Positions 24,880-47,200 of a DNA stretch of 64,000 bases are shown piece by piece. The notes beneath the pieces are model-generated. The model saw only the letters and a program-made list of their open reading frames with translations, did no database searches and was not told the DNA's origin. Both the position numbers and the translations under genes were made by a program. Position 1 is the first letter of the stretch. Every line of letters starts with the position of its first letter. The DNA comes from Mactra quadrangularis (lineage: Eukaryota; Mollusca; Bivalvia; Venerida; Mactridae): contig CM046307.1 of the NCBI GenBank assembly GCA_025267735.1, positions 60,631,395-60,695,394 on the forward strand, written 5' to 3'.

Positions 24880-27800
24880 ATGGGTAATCAAGAATCAACA
24901 CCTGCTTCTTCTGGATTACCTCATGACTTTTTGAATTCATTGAGGAAAAATACGCCTTGTGAGTATACACTGTAATCTATTTATTTTAGGACTGATTTTT
25001 AACATTCTTGTTCTGATAGGTTATCAAGGTTCTCATGGTTGATTGAGCATCTTGAAACCTCTTGGGATTGAATTGGATTACTTAAAACTGAAATTGGTTA
25101 AGTGTTTGCTTGAAATCAGTAAGAATTGGCTAATCATTGGAATTATAACTCTCAGAGTCATTCTAGTGGATGTCAGACTGGTGTAGGTAAATCTAAATCT
25201 GGTTTATAATGCCTTTTATACTCATTAAAGATGAAACCATTGTCACAATAGAATTATGCCCCCTCTGCAGGTACCCATTTACACTGACGTAAAGTAATTT
25301 AATGGTAGAAAAATGTCTTGTTCAAAGAAATTAGCTGTGTCATTTTTGTGTGTTTGTTCAAAGAAATTAGCTGTGCTATTTTGGGTTTAAACTCTGAACC
25401 TCTCATCCTGAAGTGTGCAAACTTCCACCGGACTACTGCTTCTACTCATCATTTGAGGCAGACAGTTTTCTTCACCATGATTTTTGGAATGCACTAACTG
25501 CTAGTATAAGACTCGCTTCTTATCCAAGGTTATGTTCACATTCTTATATATTGTCATTTTTTGATATCAGGACTTTTACTCTGACGCTCTATTTGAAGGA
25601 GCAATGGTCCAGTGGTAGGACGTGCACTTAGGGATCAAGAGGTCCTGGGTTTAACCCCACTAGAGGCTCTGCTAATTTCCTTAAGTAATAAATATACTTA
25701 ACAGATGTTCCAATCAACCTAGCTGTAAATCGACACTGTGAGGTGATCATGTCTTGATGATTCAAACTATGTTACAGCAGTAATCTTATGCTAGCAAATT
25801 TACTATATAGAGGATATTCGCCAATTTTGGTGTAAGATCGATTTATATTTCACCGAGTGAGCTTAGAAAACATATTTTCACGAGTGGCGTAGCCACGAGT
25901 GAAAATGTCATTTTCTGAGCTCACAAGGTGAAATATAAATCGATCTTACACCGAAATCGGCGAATTTTCTGTTTCTTTCATGCTGTTCACCTGAAAAATG
26001 ATGCAAGACTATCTAGATCTACCTGTGCCAGTTCATGGACAGACCGTATGACTCATTATTAATGCGATAGAGCGAAAATAAGTAGTTCCAGTGTGCATAA
26101 TTTATTGTAATATAATCGTTCATTTCTTAAGACACTACCCATCCAAATTTAATTAATCCATGTTTGTTACATTAAAGAAGTATGAGGGAAAACAATTTTA
26201 AACTCGAAAATCGTGTAACAGTTTCCTCACGCGGAAGGAGACAAATGTGTACTGCATGAACAGTCAATGTCAAGGTAAATGTGTTTACGTCTGAGTTGGT
26301 ATACGCGAATTTTAAATCAATACAGTTTTTATTGTGATGTCATATTACACGGTTAAACGGAAGGATTTAAACGATATTATCAAGCGACTGGAAAGTACAT
26401 GTTTCACAATTATGATATGGATATAAGGATAATGTAAGGAAACACATATAATCTAGATCTACGCGCTGAAGGGATGTTTCATTGATTTGTCAAAATGGCG
26501 AAGACTCAAGAAAGCCGATGATTTTTAGCCAGTTCATTATATCTAATTTATGCACAGATTGGCTTGGATTTATACTAGCCAACCTTTGTATTTACCGTAT
26601 AATGACTGGATATTCGTCAAATGAATCAATGAATGGAATCCAATGGCAATGCACACGATGCAGCTTTGATACAGTCAACGTTCAGACATGTTTGAGTTTT
26701 TCCTCGCTGGATTTGAATGGTGACGTAAGTTATTCTAAGATTTGTAATGAATTTTCTCATGAAAACCTGTATCAGACTATTCATTAAAAGCGCGAAACTC
26801 TCGCATTTGACCCCAATTATGTACAAAAAATCTCCATTATGCAGTCGCGTGATTGCCGTGTAATCTGGACTGAGCTGTGTCGACTAAATTTGTTGACTTT
26901 CGTTTTAAAAATTAGTTAGCAACAGGATATGTTGGATTTGTTTATATCATCTCCTGCTTTAGCATCAACTAATGCATTTGTCACCATTGAACTCGCTTAT
27001 ATGATGTTTGAAAAAGCTCTAGCTTGTCTGTCTCCCTTGAAAAAAGTAGTCCGTCATTTTTTATATTTTCACCGTAGTGAAAATATAAACCGATATTTTC
27101 ATCGTTTATTTTCATCGTATAACACAGCATTTCATCGTAAAGCATGAAAGAAGATCAGTTTATTTGTCCAATAACTAACTGAGGGCAATGTATGTGTACT
27201 TTATTTTGATGTTCATTCTATCATAAATAAAATTTTCAGTCACTGCTCATGAAATAGAACAGATTGCATACCGCTATACATTAATGGATTCTTCAGAGCT
27301 TGGAAGGGCTGGTATCACTGTCAATGATTGTATAATGATGCCAGAATTTACTGGTTGTGTGTTTGCACCTGATGTTATAAAATACTATCGTGATAGAGAG
27401 ACTGGTAAAGTTCATCCACGACAGTTTGTGAAAATTTGTGCAATGTTGAGTAGGAGAACACCTGCTACCAAGAAAAAAGAGTGTAAGGAATAACATTTTA
27501 TTATATGTAATTTTAACCCAAGTCTGTAGTACAGTAGACAGAGCGTCATGATTTCAAATCTAGTTTCCTGAAGCCTTAGATGATTTAAAACTATTTTAGC
27601 GAAAAAAACTATCTTCTAAATTGTAATACAAAATCAATTTTTCCATGCATTTTAACATTGTGGCAGAAAGGCAAGTCTTATCAATGCAATATTCCGTCAT
27701 CGCTACTGAAGGGGTAATGGGTTCAAATCCCACCAGGGATGGTTAAACGGTTTAACCATGGTAAATTTGTCAATATTGTCAATATACCTCTATAAATAAG

Positions 27801-30347
27801 GTATATGGAGAACTTCCCAGACTTGTGGAAGGGTAGGTGAGCACTTGTAATAGACAAGGATCCAGGAAAGCTAGTTTAAGTACACTGGCCGCACCGCTGT
27901 GAAATTACATAAATTGTGTTGACACGGGGTTAAACCCAGTATAAAGTAAAAGAACATGTTATTTTAATTGTAGTTCCATGTTGTGTTTGGTCTTTTCAAC
28001 ACTTAATGATCATTTTCATCAAAATTGCAGAACTGTCAAGGGCGGCAAGATTCAAAGCTTGAGAAGTAGGTTCCAAGGGCCTGTTGCCCCTGGTAAGGGT
28101 ATCCCCCTAGAAACGAATGCTGTATTCTCAATGATTTTAGTAAAAATATTATCAAACCCATTGCATATTGAGCCAACTAAAATCATGTACATATTTCTTG
28201 CATTATTACATTTATGGTGTCAGTTTTGCTGCACCCATACAGGTAGAGACATCATTTTTCAATCTTCAAGATTGACAAGAAAAGTTGGCATTCCTTCATC
28301 ACAGCAAGCAGTTGCACAAGATTGGTCAAGTCAGTTATAATAAAGATCTTACCAAATTAGTACTGATTGAAAAAACATTTTATAATATTTTTGATTTTGC
28401 GCAAGAAGTTGAATTCTCAGAGTCAGAGCATGATCTCTGTTCTAAATGTGTGAGCCTCATGCTGAATGCCTGAGACTTGACAGTTATGTTACTGTTATAG
28501 AATGATAGCTGGTACTGAGAAATGTTTGTTAAGAAATGTATTTTATATTACTATTTTACAGTTTTATTTGACCTGTATGATGTTGACAGACAGAAGATAC
28601 TTACCCATGATGCAATGTTTAGATTATATAAACTAATGTTTCACAGTGCTATATCAGATGACCATATATTAGGACTAGTGTTCAGTGCATTAAGACATCC
28701 ATATTTATCAAAAGATGGTGAATGCACTAAAGATGAATTTACTGACGTAAGTATGGAGAATATACTGTTAGAAAGTGTGGTTTAAAGTCTGCTTCCATAT
28801 AGATGTTCAGTCAACTTTACAATCTTGTACAATAACTCCTGATCACTGCAATCACCCTCAGGCAGGCAATCCCTCACAGTATCCATGTATACCTGGTTGG
28901 AGTGGAATAATTGAAGGGTAATTTCTTGCTCAAGGAAATTAGCAGTGCCTCTAGTGGGGATCGAACCCAGGACCTCTTGATCCCTAAGTGGGTGTCCTAC
29001 CACTGGACCACTGCTGTTGTTAAGTTTCGCTGCACAGACTACCTTGGTTATTGCATTTCATGCCAATTTTGACAGTTTTTATGTCCCAAATACTTATTTT
29101 GGAGAGGAGATTTCTATAGCTAGACTGTTAGGTTATTGAGACCAGGGCTCATATTTAACAAAAAATAGGACTCACAAATTTTTGCGAGTTGATTTGATTT
29201 CAACTCGCAAAATGAAAATTATCGCTCACATTTTTTTCTTCAAATTTTAATGGCATACATAGTAACTATTCATATATGCAATACAAAAACAACATAGTGC
29301 TACAATTAACTAGATATATCAAGGGCGTTATTGTGGGATAGACAAAAATATCCCAACTATCGATCTATCTGGCCGTTTCAATGCTGATTTGAGCCTTATT
29401 AGTTTAGACAGTAAAATGTTTGTGGCGATTTTAACTCGCGAAAATTTGCGAGTTAAAATAAAAGTAACTCTCAATTTTCAAAATCCACTCGCATTTTGCG
29501 AGTATGCGAGCTTAAATTCGAGCCCTGATTAAGACAATTGATTGTGATGGACCTTATTGTAGTACTTTATTGTATCACTTCATTTAGCTAAGGTATATAA
29601 CATCTCTCAGGTTTCCTTACCTTCATGCTAGCTTTTATACCAATATAGAGGCCTGTCCACTTTCAACTCAGAAGGTCATGGGGTTTGATTTCAGATTAAA
29701 CTGTATATTTTTACCAGGTTACATTTACATAATTAGTTTTATGGTGATTTGGCTCTCATGAATGACTTTTCTATCATATTGTGACAGTGAGTGGACCTAC
29801 ACTTTGTTCATGGAGGTGTTTTAATCTCTAGACAAATGATTTCATCATAACTTTGCACATTAATTACTTCGTCAGTGACTTATAAATGTTCTAATTTATA
29901 CTGTGGTATCGAAAGTTATTAATGTAAGTTTTAAGAAGATATTTCACAATCAAGCTAAAATATTTTAGTATAAACTGATTGATAGCCTGATGAACTACCT
30001 ATGAGTTAATAGAGCCAATTACTTAACAATGAACATGTACTTGATATCTATATGTTGGCTTGTGATTATGAAATCATTATTGGTCTGGTGATGTTCTTCT
30101 GGAGACAAATAACAACTTGACCATGTACAAACTTAGCAACCTTGCCAATACTTACCCACTGGCCAAGTTTATCAAGTTTTCTTTCGGCAATTTATTTCAG
30201 ATTATAACAGATAATGAAATACAAGAGAGATTATCTGTAGACTTTGCATTTGATCCAAGATTTGTCACAGAACAACCTGAACAAGAAGAGGAAGAAGAAG
30301 AAGATGATGATGAAGAAGAAAAAAAACCAGGTGGCCCCACTGAATAA
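24880..30347 (+). CDS. Calcineurin-B/CHP-like EF-hand protein, N-myristoylated (4 exons)
   Basis: Exons 24880-24958, 27240-27482, 28562-28746 and 30201-30347 (stop TAA). All are bounded by GT/AG with matching phases (1, 1, 0) and give 217 residues. The N-terminus MGNQESTPASS fits the Gly2 myristoylation consensus. About residues 28-110 form an EF pair (EIEQIAYRYTLMDSSE; VIKYYRDRETGKVHPRQFV). A linker rich in basic residues (RRTPATKKKE) leads to FLFDLYDVDRQKILTHDAM, the third EF-like unit, and HPYLSKDGECTKDEF, the fourth. The layout is that of calcineurin B and CHP, which dock on membrane or phosphatase partners. The loops are degenerate: loop 3 has Ala where the bidentate Glu belongs, and the others have substitutions or an insertion, so Ca2+ binding may be weak. 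The C-terminus is a Glu/Asp run (EEEEEEDDDEEEKK) then PGGPTE. This last piece comes from the first unit of the downstream minisatellite. Confidence 0.85.
25255..25440 (-). mobile_element. SINE family 3, degraded reverse copy
   Basis: Intron 1 of the EF-hand gene. The reverse complement has the head (AGCAGTAGTCCGGTGGAAG) and AGCTAATTTC(T)TTGAACAAG. An internal ~45-bp part (TGTTCAAAGAAATTAGCTGTG) is duplicated. Confidence 0.6.
25596..25760 (+). mobile_element. SINE family 3, forward copy
   Basis: The head GCAATGGTCCAGTGGTAGGA and the B-box GGTCCTGGGTTTAACCCC are followed by ACTAGAGGCTCTGCTAATTTCC. Nearly identical in the head to the reverse complement of 28780-29017. Confidence 0.75.
25816..27140. 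mobile_element. Foldback-type repeat with long hairpins in EF-hand intron 1
   Basis: 25816-25965 is a large hairpin: about 73-bp arms (ATTCGCCAATTTTGGTGTAA... against ...TTACACCGAAATCGGCGAAT) around GTGGCGTAGCCAC. A second hairpin (TATATTTTCAC-CGTA-GTGAAAATATA) lies at 27062-27087. TTTCATGC near 25976 and GCATGAAAG near 27143 may be matching ends. Overall limits are tentative and there is no transposase. Confidence 0.5.
27690..27957 (+). mobile_element. SINE family 2 copy
   Basis: Lies in EF-hand intron 2. B-box GGGTTCAAATCCC at 27719, then a body matching 55160-55436: CTTGTGGAAGGGTAGGTGAG, AGACAA(T/G)G(G)ATCCAGGAAAG, ATTGTGTTGACACGG(G/C)GTTAAA. Confidence 0.75.
28018..28340 (+). other. Unassigned open frame in EF-hand intron 2
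   Basis: An open frame here includes KGGKIQSLRSRFQGPVAPGK and later RDIIFQSSRLTRKVGIPSSQ. It has no matching acceptor or donor in phase with the flanking exons and I do not recognise it. It is probably a repeat or retropseudogene remnant rather than a skipped exon. Confidence 0.25.
28780..29017 (-). mobile_element. SINE family 3, full reverse copy
   Basis: The reverse complement starts AGCAGTGGTCCAGTGGTAGG, has B-box GGTCCTGGGTTCGATCCCC and the body CTAATTTCCTTGAGCAAGAA, and ends CATATGGAAGCAGACTTTAAAC-like. Best-preserved family 3 copy here, in EF-hand intron 3. Confidence 0.85.
29153..29527. mobile_element. hAT-type MITE with 8-bp target duplication
   Basis: The left end CAGGGCTCATATTTAA and the right end (reverse complement CAGGGCTCGAATTTAAG) are inverted repeats with subterminal ACTCGCAAAATT/GCGAGT motifs. 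Flanks ATTGAGAC (29145-29152) and ATTAAGAC (29528-29535) match at 7 of 8 bases. Non-coding; in EF-hand intron 3. Confidence 0.85.
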
Positions 30348-30505
30348 ACATAGAAACATCTGTATGAACCACTAGGTGGCACCACTGAATAAACAAAAAC
30401 ATAGAAACAGCTGTATGATCCACTAGGTGGCACCACTGAATAAACAAAAACATAGAAACAGCTGTATGAACCACTAGGTGGCGCCACTGAATAAACAAAA
30501 ACATA
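30327..30505. repeat. 51-bp minisatellite, left block
   Basis: Units contain CCACTAGGTGGC(A/G)CCACTG, AATAAAC and CAGCTGTATGAA. Cores start at 30369, 30420 and 30471 (period 51), with a diverged first core at 30327 that overlaps the last codons of the EF-hand gene. Each unit carries AATAAA and a CAGCTG E-box. It continues at 34104 beyond the foldback transposon. Confidence 0.95.
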
Positions 30506-33500
30506 GGGTCATTCCAGCTCAAATCAACCAGTGCTTCCCAGGTCACCCTCTCAGATCTGCCTGAAACTTTTAACATGTATTTGTACATCCAATTCATGGA
30601 CAAAAATGAAATATTTAGTCATTATCTCCAGTACTTTGGAAAAAATTGGCATTTTAAGTAAAGGGGGGTAATTTTGCAGTTTCTGAATTTCGTCCTGAGG
30701 CCATGTTTAGATACTTATATCTCCTGAAATATTATTTCTATACTTCTGAAAGTGATATATGTCACACACTTTTACCTGTAGAGTACAAAAATGGTGTTCA
30801 ATCAAGTGTGAAATTGTTACTTTTTTGTCTATAGACCTCTAAAAATCGAAAAATCTTAAATTTGTCTTAAAATCTTCCAAATTGGAACATTGATTTTTTC
30901 ATAACCATTTCATATTTAGATCTCAAATTTATTAAGCATTTATTTACAACATATAAGAGTATTTTAAAACAAATTTGAATCCAAAATCTCACTTATAGAA
31001 TTTACAATATTTATTTAAATTGAGTATGATCTCAAAATTTTGCGAAAATTGCCTATATTCGAACACCAAAATGGCCATGTCAAGAGTTCACAATCATTTT
31101 CAAATTTTGTACATAAATACTATTACATGTTAACATTATTCAATCAAAAATTTGTTTTGTTTATAAGTTTCTTGACGGAGTTATGCGTAACTTTAGAGAG
31201 GTCGATTTTTTCAGTTCTCGGGGGCTATTAGAGTATATTTTAAAGTTGGTTTTGTCCCGGGGTATGACTGTATGTGCTTGTAATAGACTAAACAGTTGCT
31301 AAATTATGCATGGAAATAATATTTGAACATTAATTTGCATCATACATGTATATCAATATTTTAACAAAAATCTTTTATTTACATAATACTTTAAATATGT
31401 ATGATGCCGATTGCATTGGTGCTCATAATATAAACATTGGAGACTGTATTTAACTGAATGTTTCAGGAACCACTTTTGTCATAAATGGTGTTGGAAGGAT
31501 AATACTTTTTAATAATAGAATGTTTCTTTCTGGAATTAAACATATTCAGTTATTAAATTTAAGCATTTGTAATTGTAATTTAATATTAATTTTTAATTTT
31601 ATTTATTTATTTGAATTATTTTCTTATTATGCATGAAAAAAGCGTAAGACCAATGTTATATTCTTAAACAATGTACATGAAGTCCAAATGTCTTGGTAAT
31701 CAGTTATGGTTATTGCCCTTTGTGTTGTTACAGTAAAACTTTTTTATCCTAGTCAGACAACAACCATATTAGTTTCATCAATTTTTCGACTAAGTGTTCC
31801 AGGTAATGACAAGGAATCCCAATAAGACATGTTATTTTGTTTAATTGACGTAAGCTTTGACTCCTGACAACTTCTGAAAAAAAAACCTCTTAAACAAGTC
31901 TCTCTTTAATACACCTACTTATTTGTGTCCCAGTTACTGCAACTCTGTGGCATTGGAGGTATAGTACAACCTCTCTTGAACAACACCTACTGGAAGGGAC
32001 CAAAAGTGTTGCTTTTCAGAGATTGTTGCTCTGCAGACTGCAGAGGTTAAATTCAATTAAAATCATTTCTAAGGAAAATACCATGAAGTTGTTGTTGTGC
32101 AGAAGATTTGTTTTGAAGAGGGCCACTCTGCAGAGGTTATACTGTATTGTTCATAAATCTTTTCATTCACTCAAAAGTCAGATGTAGACATTTTTCAACA
32201 GCTCATAAAATTTGTTCTTATATTCAAAGTGGACATTTTTAAAATTGGTTAAAAAAAGGCTGGCACCATTTTGAAATCCAAAAAAGAATTTCTTTCATGA
32301 TTGAAAGCACTGTTATAGAGATTGTATGACAAAATTTCAAATACATTTTCCCAAGAATCACTTAGACATCATGAACGTCTAAATATTAATAGTACTGGTA
32401 CATGTATGTGTAAAACCATTCAGTGTATCATAATCAAGAAAGAAGGTATAATACAGTAAAACCTCAATATTCATATCACTGGAGGCCATCTGAATAAATT
32501 CAAGTGATTTTAGTTCTGATTTAAGAAAATAGCACTGGGAAGCAATTATTAGTTTTAAGTATTCATGTATAATTTTGTATTTGTCAAGATATATTACGTT
32601 TAATAAGTGTGGTTTCTGTCATTAATATCATAGGTAACAGGAAAGAGTGTTAGGCTCTAAATTTTTTCGTTGAAGTTGAAAAATACATTGACCATATCAA
32701 ATTTTTTTTAATAATTATCTTATAAAAGTTTACGAATCTATGTATCACTAGTTAACAAATTCTTACTTAATAATGTTTTTGAAACATTTTGAGCCAGTAC
32801 AAATTGCTTTCAGTGTATATGTTCACAAAACAAACCAAAGAACTGAAACTTTATTTTTAAAATGTTTATGTGTTTCACAACACCATCGAGGAGTTTGATA
32901 ACAAAATATATTTTTACTCAGATGGTAAGAATCATAATATGTATGTACAAAATGTACAAGTAAATGATCAAATATTACATCCCTTCATAACATTAGGACT
33001 GTATGAATTCATGGTTATATTTCATGTGCGGGACAGAACTGAATTTATAAAATACTAGGTTAGTCCCAAAGAATTGATAATTGGATACCTTACTATCACT
33101 CAAAACCTACACAATATAATCCTTTAAGACAGAATATGGTTTTGGAAACATTCAGTTAAATACAGTCTCCAATGATGATATGAGCACCTAGGCAATCATC
33201 AAAATATGTATATATTCAAAGTATATGGAAAAAAGATTTTTGTTAAAATATTGATATATGATGCAAATTAATGTTCAAATATTATTTCCATGCATACTAT
33301 AGGGACTGTTAAGTCTATTACAAGCACATACAGTCACACCCAGGGACAAAACCAACTTTAAAATATACTGTAATAGCCCCCGAGAACTGAAAAATCGACC
33401 CCTCTGAAGTTACGCATTACTCTGTCGAGAAGCTCATAACCAAAACAAATTTTTGATTGAATAATGTTTACATGTAATAGAATTCATGTACAAAATTTGA

Positions 33501-34103
33501 AAATGATTGTGAACTCTTGACATGGCCATTTTGGTGTTCGAATATAGGCAATTTTCGCAAAATTTTCAGATCATACTCAATTTAAATAAATATTGTGAAT
33601 TCTATAAGTGAGATTTTGGATTCAAATTTGCTTTAAAATACTCTTATATGTTGGAAATAAATGCTAAATAAATTTGAGATCTAAATATGAAATGGTTATG
33701 AAAAAATCAACGTTCCAATTTGGAAGATTTTATGACAAATTTAAGATTTTCCGATTTTTAGAGGTCTATAGACAAAAAAGTAACAATTTCACACTTGAAT
33801 AAGCACCATTTTTGTACTCTACAGGTAAATGTGTGTGACATATATCACTTTCAGAAGTATAGAAATAATATTTCAGGAGATATAAGTATCTAAACATGGC
33901 CTCAGGACGAAATTCAGAAACTGCAAAATTACCCCCCTTTACTTAAAATGCAAATTTTTTCCAAAGTACTGGAGATACTGACTAAATATTTCATTTTTGT
34001 CCATGAATTGGATGTACAAATACCTGTTAAAAGTTTCAGGAAAATCTGAGAGGGTGACCTGGGAAAATTTCTAAAAATTGGTTGATTTGAAATGGAATGA
34101 CCC
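30506..34103. mobile_element. 3.6-kb foldback DNA transposon with ~965-bp inverted arms
   Basis: The left arm, 30506 to about 31471 (starts GGGTCATTCCAGCTCAAATC), and the right arm, about 33137-34103 (ends GATTTGAAATGGAATGACCC), are inverted copies with scattered substitutions and small gaps. The 4-bp flanks are CATA (30502-30505, 34104-34107); removing the element restores an intact minisatellite unit. The 1.66-kb core has no convincing transposase. A 62-codon frame at 32870 lacks recognisable motifs. Terminal GGGTCATTCC with a 4-bp duplication is compatible with Sola- or Academ-type elements, but that is inference. Confidence 0.9.
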
Positions 34104-34700
34104 CATAGAAACAGCTGTATGAACCACTAGGTGGCACCCCTGAATAAACAAAAACATAGAAACAGCTGTATGAACCACTAGGTGGTGCCACTGAATAAAC
34201 AAAAACATAGAAACAGCTGTATGAGCCACTAGGTGGCGCCACCGAATAAACAAATAAACATAGAAACAGCTGTATGAACCACTAGGTGGCACCACTGAAT
34301 AAACATGGAAACTACTGTATGAACAACTAGATGGCATCTTTGCACTGAATAATCATGAAAACAGCTGTATGAACCACTAGGTGGCACCACTGAATTTATG
34401 GAAACAACTGTATGAACAACTAGATGGCATCTTTGAATAAAGATGAAAACAGCTGTATGAATCACCAGGTTGGATCACTGAATAATCATGAAAACAGCTG
34501 TATGAATTACCAGGTTGGATCACTGAATAATCATGAAAACAGCTGTATGAACCACCAGGTTGGATCACTGAATAATCATGAAAACAGCTGTATGAACCAC
34601 CAGGTTGGATCACTGAATAATCATTAAAACTGCTGTTTGAACCACCAGGTGGCATCTTTGATTAAACATGGAAACTGCTGTATTAACCACCAAGTATTTG
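34104..34700. repeat. Minisatellite, right block (51-bp then 45-bp units)
   Basis: Continuation of the block at 30327. CCACTAGGTGG cores start at 34124, 34175, 34226, 34279 and 34375. Variant ACTAGATGGCATCTTTG units lie near 34325 and 34410. Four 45-bp units with CACCAGGTTGGATCACTGAA follow, and a last CCACCAGGTGGCATC at about 34642. The period shift and motif change show separate local amplification of a diverged unit. Confidence 0.95.
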
Positions 34701-34832
34701 TATTTAAAGAATCAACTGTTAGCTTCTACTGCAGAATTTTAAAAATGTGGCAATATGTTGGGTTGGTTTGGAAACTGCAATCTTACACCTTTTAAAGCTT
34801 GGCTTATTGCCTATACATTTGTAGTTACTCAC

Positions 34833-37800
34833 GGAGTAGGTGCGATTCGGCCCTGTAAAATCGCCGAATTTTAAATGTACGATTTCGGCCATAATATTTC
34901 TCATACAAATAGATCTATCTTTTAACTTTAAGAAAATGTAAAATATGTGTCCATTCAAGTCTATTTTGACTGCTCATGGGGCCCTTGAATAGGGTCAGGT
35001 GCGGCGAAATTCGCTAAATTTGACGGATTTTGACCTCTTCTACTGTCATTTTCAATACGAGTGCAGCATTGCAAAGATTTGAAATTTTCAGGAAATGTTT
35101 ATTTTATCATAATAAAAAACTGAGCGAAATATAAAATCTTTGTCGTTTTGCACTCATATTCAATTTTGAAAAAAGTGTTTAAAAATCATTACTGAAATCC
35201 AAGGGACGCAACTTCGACTTGTTTGTACTAGCGTCCATAACAACGGTTTTGTAACTAAATTTATGTGTTTACCAGTCTCATTTAAGAACAAAAGTGTTAT
35301 GCATATACTTTTCTATGTATTTACTATTCACATTCACAACTATAAGGGGAAATCACTCGTTATCAGCATTAGATTCAATTGCATATATCTTGGGCTAAAA
35401 ATAGCTCATTGACCTGAATGCATAAACCAAGATGGCAGCCTCCATGAATATGTCAGCAAAGTAAAATTGCTGTACTTTTTTTGGAAATACGAAGTAAACA
35501 GAGGATACTGGAGAATTTATGGACTTGATGGCTAATATTAAAAGCTTGTTTTAGTCTGTGGAATAAGCCATGAAGCCGACATGAAAGGAGTGAATGACGT
35601 CAATACACACAGTTCAATTCACGGCGGCTTTGAACTTAGATCAACATGAAATTATGATAACACTGTCTATTTACGTTATGCAGATTGGCTGTATGGTTGA
35701 CTAGTCTCTCTGTATATAAAGTAAATGGTGTTTGTCACATCATCTAAGAACTATTGAACAAATGGATCCAGCGATAGTGCATGCTTTGTAACTTGATCAA
35801 AATTTAACTTCTACTTTCGGTTTCAAATCAGCACAGACATAAAATTCCCTGAAATCAGGTAGATAATTTTAATATTTTCACACTATTTGCATAAGTGCTC
35901 TAATATTGATATTTTTGGCATTGAAGCTAATTTCTGCTGTTCTGCCATACATGTATATACAAGACATTTGCAATGCTTGGGTTTGATATAAATTACAAAC
36001 TTGATTGCCCTAATTTCATGTGAAACTGTGAAAGTTTATTTGGGTCTTGGACCCAAATCTAGCAGTCAACCTTTGTGAACATGTACAGTAAATGCAGTTT
36101 GTTAAAATATTGTTTGAATATACATTTGAAATTGTACTTACACTACAAAAACATGTCAGATTGTCAATATATGCTGCATTTTGCCAATACCTGCATGCTA
36201 TCAACTCATTATATATAGCATGTTGTAACTAGTATATACATGTAATTGATGTAGTAAATATAGCAGTGCCCATTCACATAAACAACTGCCCAGGACAATT
36301 AACCAGAACTTGCTTATACCCCATATGCAATAGGAAGAAAAGTTGCTTTTGAATATATATACACTGTAAAACACATGCAAAACTCTTAATATATACTGCA
36401 TGTACAGCCCTGCTAGTCTGCAAGTATGTTGCAATGAATAGCTAGTATTTGAAACCATTGTGATCTGTCAATTTGTTCTCTTGTGATCAGGTTGCTTTTA
36501 AATAATGCACTATTCATAACTGAAAGAGTCAAATAAGTTTGTCAAAAACCTTACAAAAATGATAAAATCTGGTACTTACAATGAGTATTTGTACACTAAT
36601 GATGTTATGTACAAGATTCAGATAAAATCTGACTTCCATGGTTAGAAGTAAAAATATAGAAGCATTTTGTTATGATCTGTACATAATGATGTACAGTTTT
36701 ACTAAATATCAATGTATACTTCAAATTATTTCCATTGTATATGCATTTTACAATATGTATTCCCTGATTTGGACACATTCAATAATATGAATTTACAAAA
36801 ATATGGCTGATAGACCTTCATTGTTTCACATCTATATATGTTTAAAGCTATATGACTGACTGTATGTTGCAAATGATCAAATATATAAGTCTATCTGGGC
36901 TCTCATATAAAGTCATATGAAGTTATATGTCTTAACATAGACTGCAGCTTGATAATTGCATCATGAAAGTACAACTTCTTGCATGGACTTCCTGCAATTC
37001 TTGATTTTTTTTCATTTCACAAAGTAAATTGTAAAAATCATTTTCACTTGTTATTTTGTATAACATTAATGTGACAATTAAAAGGATTCTTTTGGCTCTG
37101 TACAAGGAATGACATTATAGATTGTCCAACAGTACTGGGTTCATTCAGGATTTTCATAAAAGATAACATCTATGTGAGGACTCTCTGTGATGATGTAACT
37201 TTTTGTACATTTTGTATCATTGTTAAGCACAATGTGAGCTAAGTGATTCTGTATTCACATTTTTTTCAACAATTAAAATGAAATCACTGCTGGATTCTAT
37301 TCACTACTACCTAGACCATTTATTGTATCAAATGCTGAATCTGCTTTAATATGATGATGACATAACTGTCTTAACTAAGAAAAAGTAAAGGAATCATTGT
37401 ATATCTTTTTATATGATTTTTACTTTATTCCAATATGTTCATATTATGCCATCCATTTATCACAAAATGCAATGCAATTTGTAGAAAATATTGTTAAAAC
37501 CTTGTTATACTATTAATAAGAGTGATCCTTACATCCCAATTTAAAAGCTTGGAAGCTAATCTCTTATGCAGTTTTCCTGACCTAAACTCTATTGTATCTT
37601 GTTATCTTATTAGGATTTGATTTACTCTTTTTGCACATTTTCAACATTTTTATATGAGAAACTTATACAAAATTAATTTTATTTGATCTGATCTTTTTAA
37701 TTTCTATGAAATAATTGGTAAAAAATCAGGTTTCATAATCTTGAAAGTTGCATTTCAAATTGTTACATTTTCATTTTCTGTTACCATAGCAACCACAGCT

Positions 37801-38931
37801 TTCAATAGAGAAGAATAGCATATGATTGTGGTCTTTATACTTTGCACATCTTGCATACCAAATTTCATTAATTTAACTTATGCAGTATGGTAGCAATGAC
37901 TGAATCTCATTTTTAGAGCTTTATTTAATAATTCTGTTTTCATGGCAACCACTCATAAAAAGATATAAATTTATAATGTGATGTAATGTTTTAATACTGA
38001 TACTATATAATAATTAAGCACTTTTTACTTCAATATTGTTTTTTTTTATTTTGGCCTATTTGCATGATACATCCTCCCTATACAGATTTAGGTAACTTTT
38101 TTTGTAATGCTCAAAAACTGGGATATTTGTTGCCTTAGAAACGACCTTAGCAACGAGTAACTAAGTCAGTGCTAATGTATTATTTTTACTGTTTCAATTC
38201 AATTAAGTGGTAATTGTGATAAAATTTAGAAACAAAACTATTAAAAACTATATATCTTTGAATATCATAATTTTAGTAAAAATGATAAAGTTTCCATGGC
38301 AACGAGAACCTATTGACTAAAATGTATTTCTTTAATTGAATTTACTCAATCATAGATGGGATAACCAGAACACTAAGAACAAGGCATGCATATAAAATCT
38401 AAACTTCAACTTCAAACTTTACATTCTTAGCGAAAGTATAACATTCTATTTTAAACATGTTATTTCTTGGTATAGAATACATTTATTTTGTTTCCATGGT
38501 AATGAATATTACAATAAATGAGGTCAAAGTGTTGTGTTGTTAATTTTATATAATTACATCAACATAATATTTGAATAAGGTTTCTTTAGAATTGCAAAAA
38601 GACTGCAAAAAACATGTTTTTAAAAAAATAAAAGATTTTCAATTTCTGAAATTGGTTACCATGGCAACCAAATATTAACAACTCAAAAAGAAAGTGCTTC
38701 CCTCATGTGACAATATGTGACTATAAAACTATCAATTTTGAAAGTCAGTTTGAAGGGATATCTATATTTTCAAATTAAGCAATTTATTTTGTTCCGTTGC
38801 CATGGTAACGGACTTCACAGAATTCACTTAAAAATGTTAATTCTGGGTAACTTATTCATTTCCCTATCATATGACATAATTTGAACCACTTTGGCAACAG
38901 GGCCAAATTTGGGGGTAAACGCACCTACTCC
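34833..38931. mobile_element. Possible 4.1-kb DNA element with GGAGTAGGTGCG ends
   Basis: The left end GGAGTAGGTGCG followed by ATTCGGCCCTG and the right end (reverse complement GGAGTAGGTGCG, then TTTACCCCCAAATTTGGCCC) are inverted. TTTGTA occurs at 34819-34824 and 38932-38937, but only the right copy is adjacent to the end, so a target duplication is not proven. The interior has no open frame of note. It is AT-rich, with CAAGATGGCAGCCTCC near 35430 and an X-box-like array at 37780-38809. Confidence 0.5.
37780..38809. promoter_or_regulatory. Array of X-box (RFX-type) palindromes
   Basis: Seven matches to GTTRCCATGGYAAC: GTTACCATAGCAAC (37780), GTTTTCATGGCAAC (37936), GTTGCCTTAGAAAC (38129), GTTTCCATGGCAAC (38290), GTTTCCATGGTAAT (38490), GTTACCATGGCAAC (38655) and GTTGCCATGGTAAC (38796). 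Steps are 141-200 bp. RFX-family proteins bind this palindrome; binding here is inference. The flanks of the units are only weakly alike, so this is an eroded tandem repeat or an independent cluster. Confidence 0.6.
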
Positions 38932-39639
38932 TTTGTAATTTATGCTTATATTGATTTGTTAGTGCCATGGTCTTGCCTGATCATTTCAAAAGCTTGTTAA
39001 AAGAAGTAAAATTAAAAAGTAGTTTAGAATCTACTGATGTGTTAATAAACAATGCAAAGTCAAATTGAAATATCATTTTAGAAATATGTGTGCATAAACA
39101 TGTTATAGCATACACAAAAATTGTAAGTGTTGACCTTCCAAATGTCCATGTGCAAATCATTTTTAATAAAACAACATACATTTACCATTGAAAAAAACTG
39201 GGATTCATTTGAGCAAAATTCCAAAATTGTACATATACTAGTTAGACAACATATGATTCAAACTAGTTTACTCTTATATGCTTTAATTAAAATAAAATAA
39301 CTTGTAGTATAAATGATCATTATTTATCGATGTTTTAATTGTTTTAAAAACTTTTGGAAGGCACTGTATATGCACTTTTAATTGTTTATTTTAATGTTTT
39401 ATAATTTATTCAACTTTATGTGTTCTATTATATTTTGTTGTTGTTGTTTTTTTATAATAAATTTGTTTTAGTGTATACCAGTGTCAACAACTATCATTTC
39501 ATATTTATACATACCTAACTTTCAGGCCCATCAAGATTTTGGGTATTTGATACAGTTATATACCCAATTGTAGCTTCTTATATGAAACCGATTTCCTGTC
39601 TTCATACTATGACAAACAAAACACAAATATTCAAGTTCA

Positions 39640-40470
39640 TTCCAGATCTTTTGCACCCTCTAACATTTCTTTATCATTTCATCAACAATCAACATGTCGT
39701 TGTTATTAGTACAAGGTACGAAATGATTACAAAACATGCCCGTCGTCCGTCCTCACTTAGTTTGTTAACACTCTACTTAGTCAGGGCGAATGTCCCAGTA
39801 ATTACTCGGATGAGTTTGAATTTGGGTCATCTGGGGTTAAAAAATAGGTTGCAGTTACTAAAAATAAAAAATCTTGTCCAGACTGTAAATGTGTTATTTG
39901 TCACTGGATTTTAAAATAACTTGGAATTCATGTTCACCATAGCAAGACGTTGGGTCACATACAATACTCATACCTGTAGGTCCAAGGTCAAGGTCACTGT
40001 TACAGAAAATAGAATTTTCTCGTCTTGGCTGTCAATTTGTTATTTCTCATTGGATTTTGAAATAACTTAGTATAAATGTTCACCATATCAAGACGTTGGG
40101 TGACGTACAACCCACATGCCTGTAGGTCCAAGGTAAAGGCCACTGTTACTTAAAACAGATTATCTTTTTCTGGGCTGTAACTTCGTTATATTTCGTATGT
40201 TTTATGGCTCATGTTTTGTTTAAAAAAATTTCTGGAAATTAGTCTGAAAAGCTGTTACGATTATTTCTATCTTCTTATATGAGGAAGCCTTCTGAACAAT
40301 TTAGTGGTGACTTTTTTACCCAATGGTCATCAAACTTGGTCAGGATGCTTGCCCATGTAATTGCTCGCATGAGTTGGAAAATGGGTCTTATTGGATGTAA
40401 AACAAGGTCACAGGAGCTAGAAATAGAAAAATATTGTTATTCTAGTGATCCATGTGCCACAAAGACGTAT
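39640..40470 (+). repeat. Dispersed mollusc-type repeat, degraded cluster
   Basis: Contains CCGTCGTCCGTCCTCACTTA, two phrases close to GTCCAAGGTCAAGGTCACTGTTAC, and AACTTGGTCAGGATGCTTG with GAGCTAGAAATAGAAAAAT. The same repeat is at 53240-53570. Non-coding. Confidence 0.6.
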
Positions 40471-40479
40471 ATATGTCAT

Positions 40480-40695
40480 TCCATCTCAAATCAACCAATG
40501 ATTCCCAGATCACCCTTGCAAAATTACCCCCCCCCCCCCCCCCGTTAATTAAAAAGCCATTTTTCCAAAGTACTGAAGATACTGACTAAATATTTCATTT
40601 CTGTCCATGAATTGGATGTACAAATACATGTTGAAAGTTACAGGCAGATCTGAGAGGGTGACCTTGGAAATTGGTTGACTTGAGACGGAATGACC
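40480..40695. mobile_element. Short MITE derivative of the foldback transposon
   Basis: Its two ends (GTCATTCCATCTCAAATCAA and TTGACTTGAGACGGAATGAC) and inner parts (TCATTTCTGTCCATGAATTG, CAGATCTGAGAGGGTGACC) match the outer arms of the 30506-34103 element, with almost all of the interior gone. It includes a C17-20 run near 40519-40542. Confidence 0.8.
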
Positions 40696-41266
40696 CATTT
40701 TTCAAATTTGTGCAAATGGCATTGGGAAGCAATTTTTTCTTGTTTTCGATACTTTTTTAAAAAATATCTTAATGAAGTTTTGATCCCATTTACATTTTTT
40801 TCCAAAAGTGAAAGAAGAAATTGAAACAACGTTTGCACAAAATTGATATCTTAAAAATAAAAGCTATATGATCTATCAAAGAATTTTCACCTATACAATG
40901 TACTTTTCTATCGTAATTCGATTATCTACTCGAGACGTTGAGATCATGTATCGGCCTAAAAGTAGGACATAATAATAATTACTAATTTAAGTAAATATAT
41001 CAAGATAAAGTGATGATTTATTTAGTACGAGTACACAGCCTGTCATATCTTCTCCTCATCCTTAAGTTGACTATCACGTTGACATCACGTCGTCAAATAC
41101 TTTCAATTATTATCAATACCTCTTTATCATTGAATATCTGAGTAATCTGCTTTCCGCTGGTTTATTAAACAAAATAAGAATGTTATAAGTGAGGATAGTT
41201 CATTTTATTAGGAGGCTAATTTCATGACATCAATATTAACTGGTTTAAAGGACGAGCGCGACGAGA

Positions 41267-44200
41267 ATGGAATTCTTAAGATTGGCGTTTGTGTTAATAT
41301 TGTTTACGTCAGAATGTAAGGGAGATTTTAAAGAAGCTGGTTTTGAAAATGTTGATTATTTATCAATGATAGAAGATGCCATATATGAGGCACAAAGACC
41401 TTTAAAATCAATTCCTAAACCCAAACTCGTGTTAGCGGATAAATTTCTGGCTAAAAATAAAGCAGACGACATTCAGACACGTGCTGGTGAACTTTTAGAA
41501 GCAGGCGATACATATTTAGCAGCAGCAGAAAACGTCAGTGACTTATGTAGGAATCAAACAAACCTTTATTTAGATGCACTTCAAAACGAGGCTCAATGGG
41601 CTTTAATGAGTAAGTAAATACCTAGTATCAGTATTAAAGAATGTATACATTGTATGTTTTGTTATAATAAAACTTTAAAATGTCCTGTTTTGAACTACAT
41701 TGTAGTTAGTTCGATATATATAGCTCGTTTAGGATAACTTGAGACAAACGACTCAGTCTGTTTACATATTTGGGACTCAGGTATTACATAAAATAGGGAG
41801 GTCAGCTGATTTTGTGTAATGAAAGTATTAAGCATGTCTTAATGCATGGAACGTGTGTTCTTGTACTAAATTTAATACATCAAAAACACACTGATAATGG
41901 TCGATAATTACGTGTACTAAACTTAAATCCACCTGTGTATAATAAGGGTATCGTTGTATTTTGTCTCAAGTTATCCTAAACGAGCTATAGCTGTTTAGCT
42001 CACCGACGCTGTATTATTACGAGTCTTATTATACAATTTTACGATGAACTAATGAATTCAACGTACATGTATATCATAATAATGATGCTAGTGTTTTGAA
42101 CTCGGCTTACCTCATTGTCATTTGACGTATGCAAATTATGTTGGTACCAATCGAAAGAGCAAACCATTACCTATAAGTATTTATAAACCACTTTGGTTAT
42201 TGCATAAATCACTCTACTCGGTTTTTTGGTCTAAATGCTTAATTTATAAGGAAAGTGTCAAGATTAAGATCGCCCGCTATGAGGATCACCGACTTCGACG
42301 CCTAATAATTTATGAAACTTTAAGTACTGTACTGTACCTGTCTGATTTCAGTGTTTGATTCGGCTGGTAAACCTCCTAGCGCAATTTTTCAAGGTCAAAC
42401 AAAATGGCTTGGTAATTGGGAAGAATGTAAGAATGTGAAATCTGAAAGTTACTATAGAAACGGGACACCAGTTGATGTGTCCACACCTTTTGTCGGGAAA
42501 TATTGTACAGCTTATGTCCCTGTCAAATCTGTGAGTAAAATCTAAACCTATAATATTTATCAAGGTGACTTTATCAATATGCATTATCCTACTACAGTCT
42601 TATCATACAATAATAACTTGTATGACAGTAGCGACCCCCATGACTGTCTGAGAATGGTGTGTGGAGCAGTAAAACACGAGGGGTTCCGCATGCAGGGAAC
42701 AATTCAAAATCTATTCCATAAATGCATCATTATTATCAGTAATGCCATCACTATTATTGTCATCATCATCATCCCCGCCAGGAGCATTATCAATATCGCC
42801 ATCATCATCATCTTAATCATTACTTCCATCATCATCATCATCATTATTGTCATAATTATCATCACCAATATTATCATAATCATAACTTTCATCAACATTA
42901 TATTTTAATCATAACTGCCATCATCATCCTCATCATCATAATCAAAATTGTCATTATCATCATTAATAGCATCATAACCATACTGCCATAATCATAATCT
43001 TTATCATTATAATCATTACTGTCATCATCATAACCATCATCATTATAATCATCACTTCCATCATTTTAATAATCATTACTGCTTTCATCATCATTATCAT
43101 AACTGCCATCATCATAATAACAATCTTTACTGTCATCATCATTGTCGTCATCATTGCTTTCTTGCATTTCAGACATTATTAAATGGTAGACTGGAGATTG
43201 GTGTATGTTTTCCTGATTCGTGTTCTAACTCTGATGCTAGTGAACTTATGACTACATGTATGTAGCACTTATACATCTATACAATGCTTGACTTGTCCCC
43301 TCTAGGGCTGGGTATCTCCAGTCGAGATACGATACGATACAGGTTACAATAAAGAGGCATTCGGAACACCTCGACCTTTCATGAATGAATAATCTCGGAA
43401 GGATTCGTGGGGGGGGTCTTCACTGGATTTTTGTGATTTTACTACCTACGCGAGGCGAAGCACGTAACGGTTACACAAAATAGTTCTTGCAGTTTACACA
43501 CAGATCTTTGTCTAAACATATTTATTCGTTTTAGATTGAACTAAATATTGTTCATTGATATCATTGAACCATGTAATTTCAACTTTACGGACTAAAAGCG
43601 AAAATTCAGTCATCGCCTAAACGAACGTGTATTTGTTTACTTCAACACCGATTTTTCCAAAATGGCGTCTAAATATGTCCGAGGTTATTTGTAGCGAATG
43701 GCCTAGGAGTTCCGAATGAATAAAGAAGCTGTGATATGTATCACGATACAAGTGAAATTCAATCGACAGTCTAAGTTTATCAATCTGTTAATGTGAGCAG
43801 ATATAAGAATGCCTCTTAAATATTTACTCATTCTGTTAATCTATACATCCAGATTTGGCGTGCTCTATTTATAAAATGATCAATCGACAAGAATGTTTTC
43901 TGATGAGAAAGTTAATTTGATTTTTCTACTAACTTACGGATAATTTGAATTGCGATTTTAATATCGATTATTTCTGTTCCGATACGACTCGTTGCCAACG
44001 ATACGGTTTAGGAATGCAGCCCTATTCGTCAGTCGCTTCAATGTTGTAACAAAAATCCAAGCACTATATCAGTGTTACACTTATTTAAACTCCATATTTT
44101 TGATGAGTGGGAAAAAGAGTTATCCTGAAATCTGTTGACTTGCTTTCTTTTCTGAGATAAAATTGTATATATTGTGTTCTTTCAGTTCTGGAGTTGATTC

Positions 44201-47200
44201 CACTAGAGGGTATTCGCCCAGGGTCGGCATCTTGTCGTGAAAATGAATTGGAACTTTCAGATAAAGCCATTGCTGTAACGTAAGTTTTGTCCCCTTAAAG
44301 CTTTCAGTTCACAGATTTCAACGTAAATATCAACTTTTCGACAGCCCCCTCCCCCCAATTGTATAGAAAGATTTTGAAACAAGTAAAGCAGTGTTCGGAT
44401 GTCAACAATTTTTATGCGAATTGACGTACAACTCTAAAATAATGATGATTTTATGTATCAACCCATGCGCAGTTAATGACAGTATAGATGATTTCAGTGC
44501 GTTTTATATGATTTTTTATTTTCTCTTATTCTATAGCTCAGGTTTCCTAAAATAGTCAAGAAATCATTTTCTTTACACAATTACATACACTAACAAGTAA
44601 TTCTAAAATATCAAAACTAACAAAATCTGTGAGTGGGTAAGTTTAAAACAAATACTGTTTCAATGATTGTTTGAACTATGCTCCCGTTCGATACAAAAAA
44701 TATAAAGTATGCAAGCACAATGCTGTAATACATTGCAGCTTCGGTGTATTTTCACATCAACGAACACTGGTCATTACTCTAATTTTTTTAAGAAATGAAC
44801 AATTTAGATGGCCCGTTTTGGCAAGAAGTAAAAGAGTAATCACACATGCGCAATGAAGCAAAATGGCTTGTGGTTTTAAAGTTGGAAATGATTGTATCAA
44901 AGGATAGGACGATGCTTCATGTTCATGTCAACCGTTAATCCATATTTTCTATTGGGACCATGTGATTCAATTGCAAACGCTAATGTTTCAGGTCAAGTTG
45001 CAATTACAATGTTTGTACACAAATGCTTGAAAATATGGTAATACCTTATTTGTTCTTGCTTTTTTGTAGGATTGTTTGTAGTATCATCGGCTTCATAATT
45101 GTCATGGCAACCATCTATGACGTCATTATACAACATGTTATACCAATATTTCATCTCTCAGGTTACAATAGATTAGTAAGTATTATATAAATACATCATA
45201 GCGGTTACGTTAATCGTTGTTCTATCCTCGGCGTTACTCCTGTTATTAATTTGATAAAGGGAAATAATCTCAGCAAAGAGTTTGGGTATTTCAATTTTTT
45301 CCCCATGTTTAGTAGTGGACTGTGGCAAATCCTCATCAAAATTTGTCGCGGACTATTACATTCGGCAGTGCGTGCGCATTCCAAGGGATAATTACTACTG
45401 CAATTAATGTAGTCCGCATTACACGTTAACAAGCAGACGATAAGAAGTACATGTATATCTAATCTGGCTTATGTAAGGTAAAGGTCCCTTGTATCGCTCC
45501 CGTTTGTTGTATACAGCCATATATGCCATCAAAACCCCATGTCTGACAGCGCTATTGGCGCTTTGATTAGTACACATATAGTAAACTTAAACTTAAACTA
45601 AATATTTTAATAGACAAATTCTAATGCAGTGCCGTTTGCAAACTTTAAAGATGAGATGATGATTCTTTTTACAGTTTGAAGACCCAATGTATGGTTCTAT
45701 AAAGTTTGATCTCGCCAAGCCTCCAACACAGAAAGGGTTTTACCTTTCAGACGAAGAAGCAGAAACTAAACTTCTGAAACCACCGGAACCGGAAGTGTCC
45801 AGACCAGAGTTAGACGATAAGAAATATGACAATAAATATGTGTACGAACCTAGTAAGATGAAACTTTTGAACAAGTCCATTAAATCACTAAATATCTATC
45901 GAAAATATAGTCGTCCATTGCATCACCGAATCACTCCTGGAAATAAAGTAGTTCATTGCATCACCGAATCACTCCTGGGAAATAAAGTAGTTCATTGCAT
46001 CACCGAATCACTCCTGGAAATAAAGTAGTTCATTGCATCACCGAATTACTCTTGGAAATAAAGTAGTTCATTGTATCACCGAATTACTCTTGGGAAATAA
46101 AGTAGTTCCTTGCATCACGGAATCACTCCTGGAAATATTTATAAAGTAGTAAAATAATGAGTCGATCAAATCCAATAGTCCTTCTCGAGAAAAGCAGGCC
46201 ATTAAATCATTGAGCCATATTCAGAGAGGGAGTAAATTCTTGTTCATCCCTTGACAAGGTGTATTTTGATTACCCGAGTATATAAAAGCTTTTCATTTGG
46301 TTTAAACGGAAGGCAAATTTACAACTTAACTGTTTGTCCGTTTCAAACGTACTTCTTGGCTATTCTGCTTTGAAGTAATAAGGATTATAATTTCTTGCTC
46401 AGCATTATCATTGGTATCCGTAGTGAGAGAGTACTTGGAAGACATTAAACATCCTATAAAAACCCTATTTCATAATATTCATCATGTAAAATACGTTAAT
46501 TAATACAATTTTGGAGGAACATATTCATACCATTGCCGTTACGCCTAGCAACAAGGTACATTTTGGACCCGTTAACGCGTTGTAAGCGGCAATGCCTACA
46601 GTGATGCTGTCCAATATTGTAACTGTTACTGCTGAGTCCAACCTGATTAAACCACATCTAAAACAATCCATTCTCGCATACGCTTTTTTAGCCCATGCAA
46701 CACTACACTAGCAATTACGGTGATAATAGTAGTGTTTCGTCTCGAAGAAAGCTGCTTATGATTGGTGGACTCAAAAGTCATCTGAACATGTCCCCTGTGC
46801 AATATCTAAAAATCCCTTGACTACTGTCTCTAGGATAAAGAGATACGGAGATTGCTGCTCAACCAGGCATCATTCTGACTATGACATTTTTTTCAGGTAT
46901 TGTTGGCAATGCTTTGTTGTCTTTCTCTGTATATACAAATGCAAAGAAGATATTAAACACTGACCAACCAACAGGGACATTGACTAGTATTAATGGTATA
47001 AGATTTATCAGTATGACCTGGGTTATTCTTGGACATACGTATTCTTTTGGAACCCGCACTGTCGGTAAGGAGATCTTTTATCACACACTTTTACCTGATA
47101 TTGTGATTGTTAAGAGGTACTAAAATATGCATACATGTGTAACTTCAGTCTTCCTTAATGATATGTTCGAAATTTTAGTCAAATCCAGCAACTTGCAAAA

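Follow-up and report, generated by a model that had tools for sequence, protein, structure and literature searches.

Introduction

The question raised by a minisatellite of the clam Mactra quadrangularis is whether a tandem series of cores resembling the CTCF binding motif, located at the end of one gene and upstream of another, works as an insulator or is a repeat that has carried the motif along. The array lies in a stretch of 64,000 nucleotides (C15:60631395-60695394 of the 979-Mb genome, contig CM046307.1), here called the window, and a role as an insulator between the two genes had been put forward in an original prediction. The explanation favoured here, with moderate confidence, is that of a CTCF-competent 3'-end minisatellite of a mactrid-type clam gene, persisting by neutral turnover and not by selection for insulation.

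CTCF-like cores in the minisatellite

Unit-by-unit reading placed the minisatellite at 17 unit positions (30327-30505 and 34108-34700), mostly of 51 or 45 bp. Tandem Repeats Finder gave one array of period 51 (30329-30506) and a second in which the periods 51 and 45 are mixed (34104-34692); with these periods the repeat belongs among the head-to-tail repeats with a 10-100 bp unit that are called minisatellites. A truncated first unit of 42 bp at 30327 is followed by three units of 51 bp, the last of which continues on the other side of a transposon, then by units of 51, 51, 53, 45, 50, 43 and 45 bp and by six more from 34462, the final one of which, at 34687, is degenerate. The five full units at 34462-34642 are all of 45 bp and four of them are without the motif; these four, near-identical to one another (34462-34597), carry AGGTTGGATC and are non-sites. 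The core CCACTAGGTGG occurs eight times (positions in Table 1) and CCACCAGGTGG once, at 34642, and the variants CAACTAGATGG and NNACCAGGTTGG were found two and four times, respectively. All CCACTAGGTGG and CCACCAGGTGG cores are on the plus strand, except for a near-palindromic reverse reading at 34642. The original prediction had counted about nine core copies plus variants on both sides of a transposon, with AGGTGGCGCC in two or more units, and this was borne out, AGGTGGCGCC being present in exactly two (30471 and 34226); the steps of 45-53 bp given there describe most of the array, which also includes the 43-bp unit and the truncated one.

The units were scored with the vertebrate CTCF matrix (JASPAR MA0139.1) against the base composition of the window. 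Eight of the 17 unit positions reached 20.0-26.2 bits (Table 1), the unit at 34642 gave 17.0 bits, and the remaining eight positions ranged from -4.4 to 7.2. None of 20,000 mononucleotide (maximum 17.3) and 20,000 dinucleotide (maximum 19.8) shuffles of the 51-bp unit attained 20 bits; the units lie far above their shuffles, and therefore the outcome named beforehand as telling against a CTCF motif, scores no better than those of shuffled units, was not observed. The probability per position of a score of 23.0 is 1.3e-8 for independent bases and 1e-7 with the array's own composition. Eight further tandem arrays in the window all scored below 0 bits, and outside the array seven matches above 8 bits (5.9 expected; best 11.3) correspond to background. 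The consensus CCASYAGRKGG, allowing at most one mismatch, was matched 22 times in the window versus 2.65 expected, a count reached by none of 100 shuffles (maximum 6). Fourteen of these matches are in the array; the eight outside it, also above the shuffle maximum, include two in copies resembling a short interspersed nuclear element (SINE; 25657 and 28947, by reading) and one in the transposon (31983).

A dispersed repeat family as the origin of the unit was rejected, since all nine genome matches of two units, among the best candidates scored, fall inside the window, and the 51-bp unit was found at no other locus. A protein search with the open frame of the repeat returned no candidate, and an Rfam scan of the window gave 0 matches. 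RNA folding, carried out without a shuffle control and from which nothing is concluded, gave -5.0 kcal/mol for a single unit and -34.8 kcal/mol for the whole left array.

Occurrence of the motif in the clam genome

The pattern CCASYAGRKGGC was found 501 times (268 + 233) genome-wide, against 81 (37 + 44) for the same pattern written backward. Among 100 matches listed, 15 belonged to one array on C5, and 68 of the 85 others (L001-L008, L010-L069) were used as a sample of native sites; L003 (the same element as L001), L008 (overlapping L007) and L066 (a near copy of L065) were dropped to give 66 sites, while L061 and L063, which look mutually related, were both retained. Nine of the 66 are inside one tRNA-type SINE, so that 57 non-SINE sites remain. 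Immediately beyond the searched 12-mer, 33 of these 57 have G (16.5% expected, p 1.7e-12) and eight have A, and the four downstream matrix columns are 5.2 standard errors above nearby DNA, which the three upstream columns are not (z 1.5). To judge by these sequences, the downstream continuation of the native sites is the vertebrate CTCF one, and the clam sites support the motif. In the strong units of the array the base at +12 is G at 30471 and 34226, at 34175 it is G beside a C-to-T change, and in the other five it is A; agreement with the native sites beyond the searched core is thus full in two strong units and partial in the rest. A matrix built from the native sites scored the eight strong units at 19.7-27.2, the sites' own mean being 24.8, a value inflated by training on them.

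The tRNA-type SINE carries CCCAC(T/C)AGRGGGCAC immediately after a sequence resembling a B box; this CTCF-like site scores 21.0 bits in the L002 copy and is also present in L012, L035, L037, L039, L046, L047, L048 and L050. Rodent B2 SINEs spread CTCF sites similarly. SINE copies as the source of the array were considered and rejected, the array not being among the nine SINE-borne members of the 66 sampled core matches. L001 and L003, on C1, share an element near 1470-1520, perhaps mobile, with two CTCF-like cores 26 bp apart in identical surroundings.

Other tandem loci and the neutral expectation

A genome-wide search for CCASYAGRKGG occurring twice within 27-57 bases gave 39 + 16 pairs, whereas the backward pattern gave 1 + 15 (counted as hits, not as places). 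The 55 matches are located at 11 places, on C2, C5, C7, C8 and C14, in the window, at three places on C16 and at two on C17. Sites of at least 20 bits number 25 in L100 (C16, 33-bp unit, 26.8 copies), six in L101 (C16, the same 33-bp unit, 10.8 copies), four in L103 (C8, 56 bp, best 29.4), three in L104 (C7, 42 bp, best 29.6) and two in L105 (C16, 21 bp, best 29.2), and there are two each in L107 and L108 (C17), where the sites stand without a tandem array. The idea that every place with tandem CTCF-like cores consists of strong sites was rejected, given L009 (C5, 50 bp, 34 copies) with a best score of 14.8 bits, L106 (C2, 23 bp) with 14.3 bits and L102 (C14, 30 bp) with no match at 12 bits. 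By reading, the spacers look unrelated among loci except for the pairs L100/L101 and L107/L108. In the first of these pairs (L100:1456-2339, L101:1537-1892) the 33-bp minisatellite begins where a formin exon, assigned by reading, ends in a GTAAGT donor, and its units repeat a GTAAGT splice donor together with the CTCF-like core; the flanks are nearly identical, a formin-like gene being present twice on C16. A diaphanous FH3 domain was matched elsewhere in L100, and L101 was without a Pfam match.

The 12-mer core has 63 occurrences in the 11 places and 438 of its 501 elsewhere, and seven places hold at least two, that is, about 7 of 445 places or 1.6%. Arrays of period 20-60 occupy 588 of 33,060 and 450 of 18,072 bases of the fetched single-site loci (1.8% and 2.5%), and 1,657 of the 64,000 bases of the window, or 890 (1.4%) when the CTCF-like array itself is left out. 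Since the tandem share of 1.6% agrees with a minisatellite coverage of 1.4-2.5%, neutral capture of single sites by minisatellites fits the frequency of such arrays.

Core conservation, CpG content and the insulator hypothesis

Mean pairwise difference was compared between the 15-bp core and the other 28 ungapped columns in 15 of the 17 units, the first and the last being excluded. The core differs at 0.210 and the spacer at 0.138 per site (permutation p 0.13), so that the core is, if anything, the less conserved part and the excess of core over spacer conservation expected of an insulator is absent from this array; in four other arrays the outcome is mixed. The core is worse conserved than the spacer in L009 (15/396 versus 14/1254, p 0.0014), no difference is seen in L101 (5/120 versus 6/210) and L102 (2/252 versus 3/378), and L100 is treated below. 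Taken together, the arrays do not consistently point to selection on the cores.

Within the core the eight strong units have GGCGCC twice, GGCACC five times and GGTGCC once, the CpG being kept in two of eight. This pattern is what deamination of methylated CpG would leave and suggests germline methylation, with GGCGCC as the probable older state, supported by the Mactra alanine codon described in the next section. The observed/expected ratio of CpG is 0.10 in the array, 0.21 in the exons of the upstream gene and 0.79 in the window; taken alone the array value says little, since an array built of units has little room for CpG. A surrounding ratio of at most 0.15 was found for one of the 57 native sites, and 6.9% of the window's 550-bp tiles do not exceed the same value. 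Methylation in oyster genomes tends to be located in gene bodies (PMC3840415).

These data bear on the proposal that the array functions as a CTCF insulator or boundary and shields the upstream calcineurin-B-like gene from the downstream NRF-6-like gene. Eight strong co-oriented cores within less than 500 bp of array DNA, the transposon excluded, would suit such an element, as would a motif that is in use in the clam genome (the excess over the backward pattern and the G continuation). According to a review, CTCF orthologues are known in molluscs (PMC10658182), and a motif like that of CTCF is enriched at domain boundaries in squid (PMC10658182, PMC9023564). The squid data and an echinoderm study that also finds motif enrichment (PMC13317027) give no orientation rule for CTCF, and in the annelid Dimorphilus no motif is commoner in open chromatin than that of CTCF, most copies of which are solitary and located in promoters (PMC7854359). 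Against the proposal also stand the four 45-bp units without the motif, the inconsistent core conservation, the loss of the core CpG from most strong units and an array frequency that fits neutral capture. The resemblance to CTCF sites in the original prediction is therefore strong, by the matrix and by the clam's own sites, but the step from there to insulation found no support in core conservation, in the motif-less units or in the number of arrays. As an account of the array, a putative insulator separating the two genes is one that we judge improbable.

Flanking genes and transposon

The upstream gene, gene A, has four coding exons with canonical splice sites and an open frame for a 217-residue product, which is 88% identical to a Mactra antiquata protein and 56-73% identical to seven others, the named ones being from bivalves. 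The product matches calcineurin B subunits in PDB (E 3.4e-12). A Pfam search over the frames of gene A gave no match, and the gene was identified from exon reading and the protein search. Its last coding exon enters the first unit, where CCA GGT GGC CCC ACT GAA TAA encodes PGGPTE and the stop codon, with AATAAA overlapping. The array had been described as lying between two genes; it starts inside this exon, and the remainder is indeed downstream of gene A. It is mostly 3' untranslated region (UTR) or 3' flank of gene A and ends about 6.5 kb before gene B. The Mactra antiquata protein ends in PQGGATE, and a full unit in the frame of gene A would give PLGGATE, one residue apart; a similar C-terminus occurs in one of the eight relatives compared, namely Mactra antiquata. 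Because of this matching C-terminus, the first unit or its precursor probably predates the split of the two Mactra species, as far as the sequences tell.

The overlap of the core with the codons P-x-G-G-x-T-E-stop would also be expected if the CTCF likeness were a coding coincidence, a core derived from the C-terminal codons of gene A and amplified by chance. With six arrays of period 20-60 per 64 kb (the two array halves counted once), about 90,000 would be present per genome, and from the p-values we estimate that roughly 0.1-1 array with at least 23 bits would arise by chance. The several hundred CTCF-like sites of the genome would be a likelier source than chance. We consider coincidence an unlikely explanation.

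AATAAA occurs at 30343, 30388, 30439 and 30490, the first overlapped by the stop codon, and six more times in the right array; in most 51-bp units it stands 7 bases past the 12-base core. The array might accordingly be read as working in RNA 3'-end formation, as a series of tandem poly(A) signals tuned by CTCF pausing, and CTCF/cohesin-dependent alternative polyadenylation is reported for human cells (PMC8373115, citing Nanavaty et al. 2020). In the right array five units have AATAAT and one has AATTTA, the signal being lost there, and AATAAA arises cheaply in AT-rich DNA. We hold a role in 3'-end formation to be rather doubtful.

Downstream, gene B was recognized by a match to Pfam PF20146 (E 1.2e-10) at about 42348-42536, the first ATG of the preceding open frame being at 41267. 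The open frames 41249-41617, 45663-46028, 46839-47123 and 60563-60904 are, by reading, presumably its exons. Pfam over 34701-41300 in six frames gave no match. Two features of the DNA between array and gene B were noted in passing: 35818-38142 comprises 2,324 bp without any CpG, the next longest CpG-free run being 589 bp; and seven near-palindromic GTTDCCATRGYAAC sites (at most two mismatches), 141-200 bp apart, occupy 37780-38809. Such GTTDCCATRGYAAC matches number 22 in the window, both strands counted, versus 3.9 expected, a number reached in 0 of 100 shuffles. We take the GTTDCCATRGYAAC sites to be RFX X-box-like.

The transposon, of about 3.6 kb, has terminal inverted repeat (TIR) arms, 676 nt (96% complementary) and 147 nt (93%) in length, and its six frames contain no Pfam domain and no recognisable transposase. 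Removing it in silico leaves a perfect 51-bp unit, with CATA flanking the element at both ends; because excision restores the unit, the array predates the insertion. A short copy of the same element, resembling a miniature inverted-repeat transposable element and delimited by GTCATTCCA...GGAATGACCC, was read at 40475-40695. Beside the array, 34835-38929 carries GGAGTAGGTGCG close to one end, with the reverse complement of that sequence close to the opposite end, and is perhaps a second mobile element, seen by reading and absent from the element scan.

Table 1. Coordinates of the array, the transposon and the flanking genes in the window, with matrix scores of the cores.
Feature	Coordinates	Strand	Details
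Gene A, calcineurin-B-like EF-hand protein	24880..30347	+	exons 24880-24958, 27240-27482, 28562-28746, 30201-30347; stop 30345-30347
Truncated first unit	30327..30352	+	encodes PGGPTE C-terminus, stop codon, AATAAA 30343-30348
Left array, three 51-bp units	30353..30505	+	CTCF-like cores CCACTAGGTGG at 30369 (23.0 bits), 30420 (22.0), 30471 (24.5)
TIR DNA transposon, GGGTCATTCC...GGAATGACCC	30506..34103		sits inside one unit; CATA duplication 30502-30505 and 34104-34107
Right array, mixed part, 43-53-bp units	34108..34416	+	strong cores CCACTAGGTGG at 34124 (22.9 bits), 34175 (20.0), 34226 (26.2), 34279 (23.0), 34374 (23.0); weak 34324 (6.0)
Right array, 45-bp part	34417..34700	+	34417 weak (6.0 bits); 34462-34597 motif lost (-2.7 to 4.8); 34642 kept (17.0); last -4.4
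Gene B, first part, nose-resistant-to-fluoxetine (NRF-6)-like	41267..47123	+ (same strand as gene A)	start codon inferred; further exons probably to about 60.9 kb

Discussion

In the favoured explanation, a segment with the last codons, the stop codon and the poly(A) signal of gene A, or a sequence fused to it, would have been multiplied head to tail in units of 51 bp, a variant of 45 bp would have spread at the far end, and the TIR transposon would have split the array later. With a core that matches the quality of the genome's single CTCF-like sites, the eight best units are predicted to be capable of binding CTCF. CTCF has a footprint of about 45-51 bp, and adjacent units, 45-51 bp apart, could probably not all be filled at once; the strong units may, in addition, be methylated in the germline. 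Any effect would more likely be a local one at the end of the gene, on polymerase pausing or on which poly(A) site is chosen, than that of a domain boundary.

Several results weigh against this explanation. When the comparison is restricted to the eight strong units, the core shows less difference (0.052) than the spacer (0.092), and in L100, the largest of the other strong arrays (26 units), the core is the better conserved part (5/312 versus 25/546, p 0.021), both of which would fit selection on the core. The CpG depletion of the array hints at a germline methylation that could keep CTCF off altogether. The human CTCF zinc-finger region gave 313 matches in the genome, those listed being 37-49% identical and none of them recognisable as CTCF (127 of 1,529 candidates scored); in the protein database the named proteins among the best 120 of 4,305 matches were from vertebrates, with no bivalve CTCF among them. 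The comparison on which neutral capture is based uses small samples, one backward control and loci chosen for holding the core.

A wider proposal would be that CTCF-like sites at coding-exon ends are repeatedly amplified into short arrays coupling the core to an RNA-processing signal (AATAAA here, GTAAGT in the formin pair on C16), as copy-number-variable modules that tune 3'-end or splice choice via CTCF-dependent pausing; we regard this as highly speculative and very improbable.

The role of CTCF in spiralians is an open question, and the clam genome appears, on sequence evidence, to keep a vertebrate-like motif. The loci described here offer natural series with 2 to 25 strong sites in tandem, which could serve directly as test objects. 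Should copy number differ from animal to animal, alleles with differing numbers of sites at one gene would be available. If the arrays are bound, one may ask how site number and methylation shape the action of CTCF in molluscs; if they are unbound, neutral repeats would be shown to carry strong CTCF motifs along easily.

Comparison with known systems

The units of the macrosatellite DXZ4 are about 3 kb long, a kilobase size not found in the clam array with its units of 42-53 bp. Tandem repeats with CTCF motifs are already known from DXZ4, which is reported to be bound by CTCF on the inactive X (PMC3491370); the clam array shares the tandem units with the motif and differs in having 17 short unit positions at a gene 3'-end and a binding that is predicted. 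None of the matches listed from the open-licence PMC literature described short minisatellites with CTCF motifs in molluscs. With the vertebrate CTCF site of the matrix the clam array has in common the core CCACTAGGTGGC(G/A)C, which fits the high-information positions; unlike it, the clam core repeats every 43-53 bp, in a mollusc, and is a predicted site. The tandem CTCF insulators of the protocadherin and beta-globin loci (PMC7087399) likewise place several cores near genes, as separate sites whose function was tested, whereas the clam cores form a minisatellite. An ordinary 3' UTR minisatellite, or variable number tandem repeat, resembles the clam array in its tandem units at a gene end, its variants, its degenerate edge and its transposon insertion, and differs from it in the strong factor motif of the clam unit and the stop codon in the first one. 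The formin minisatellite of L100/L101 has an unrelated spacer, and its core is antisense to the gene; like the array of the window, it starts at an apparent coding-exon end and joins the core to an RNA-processing signal in its units.

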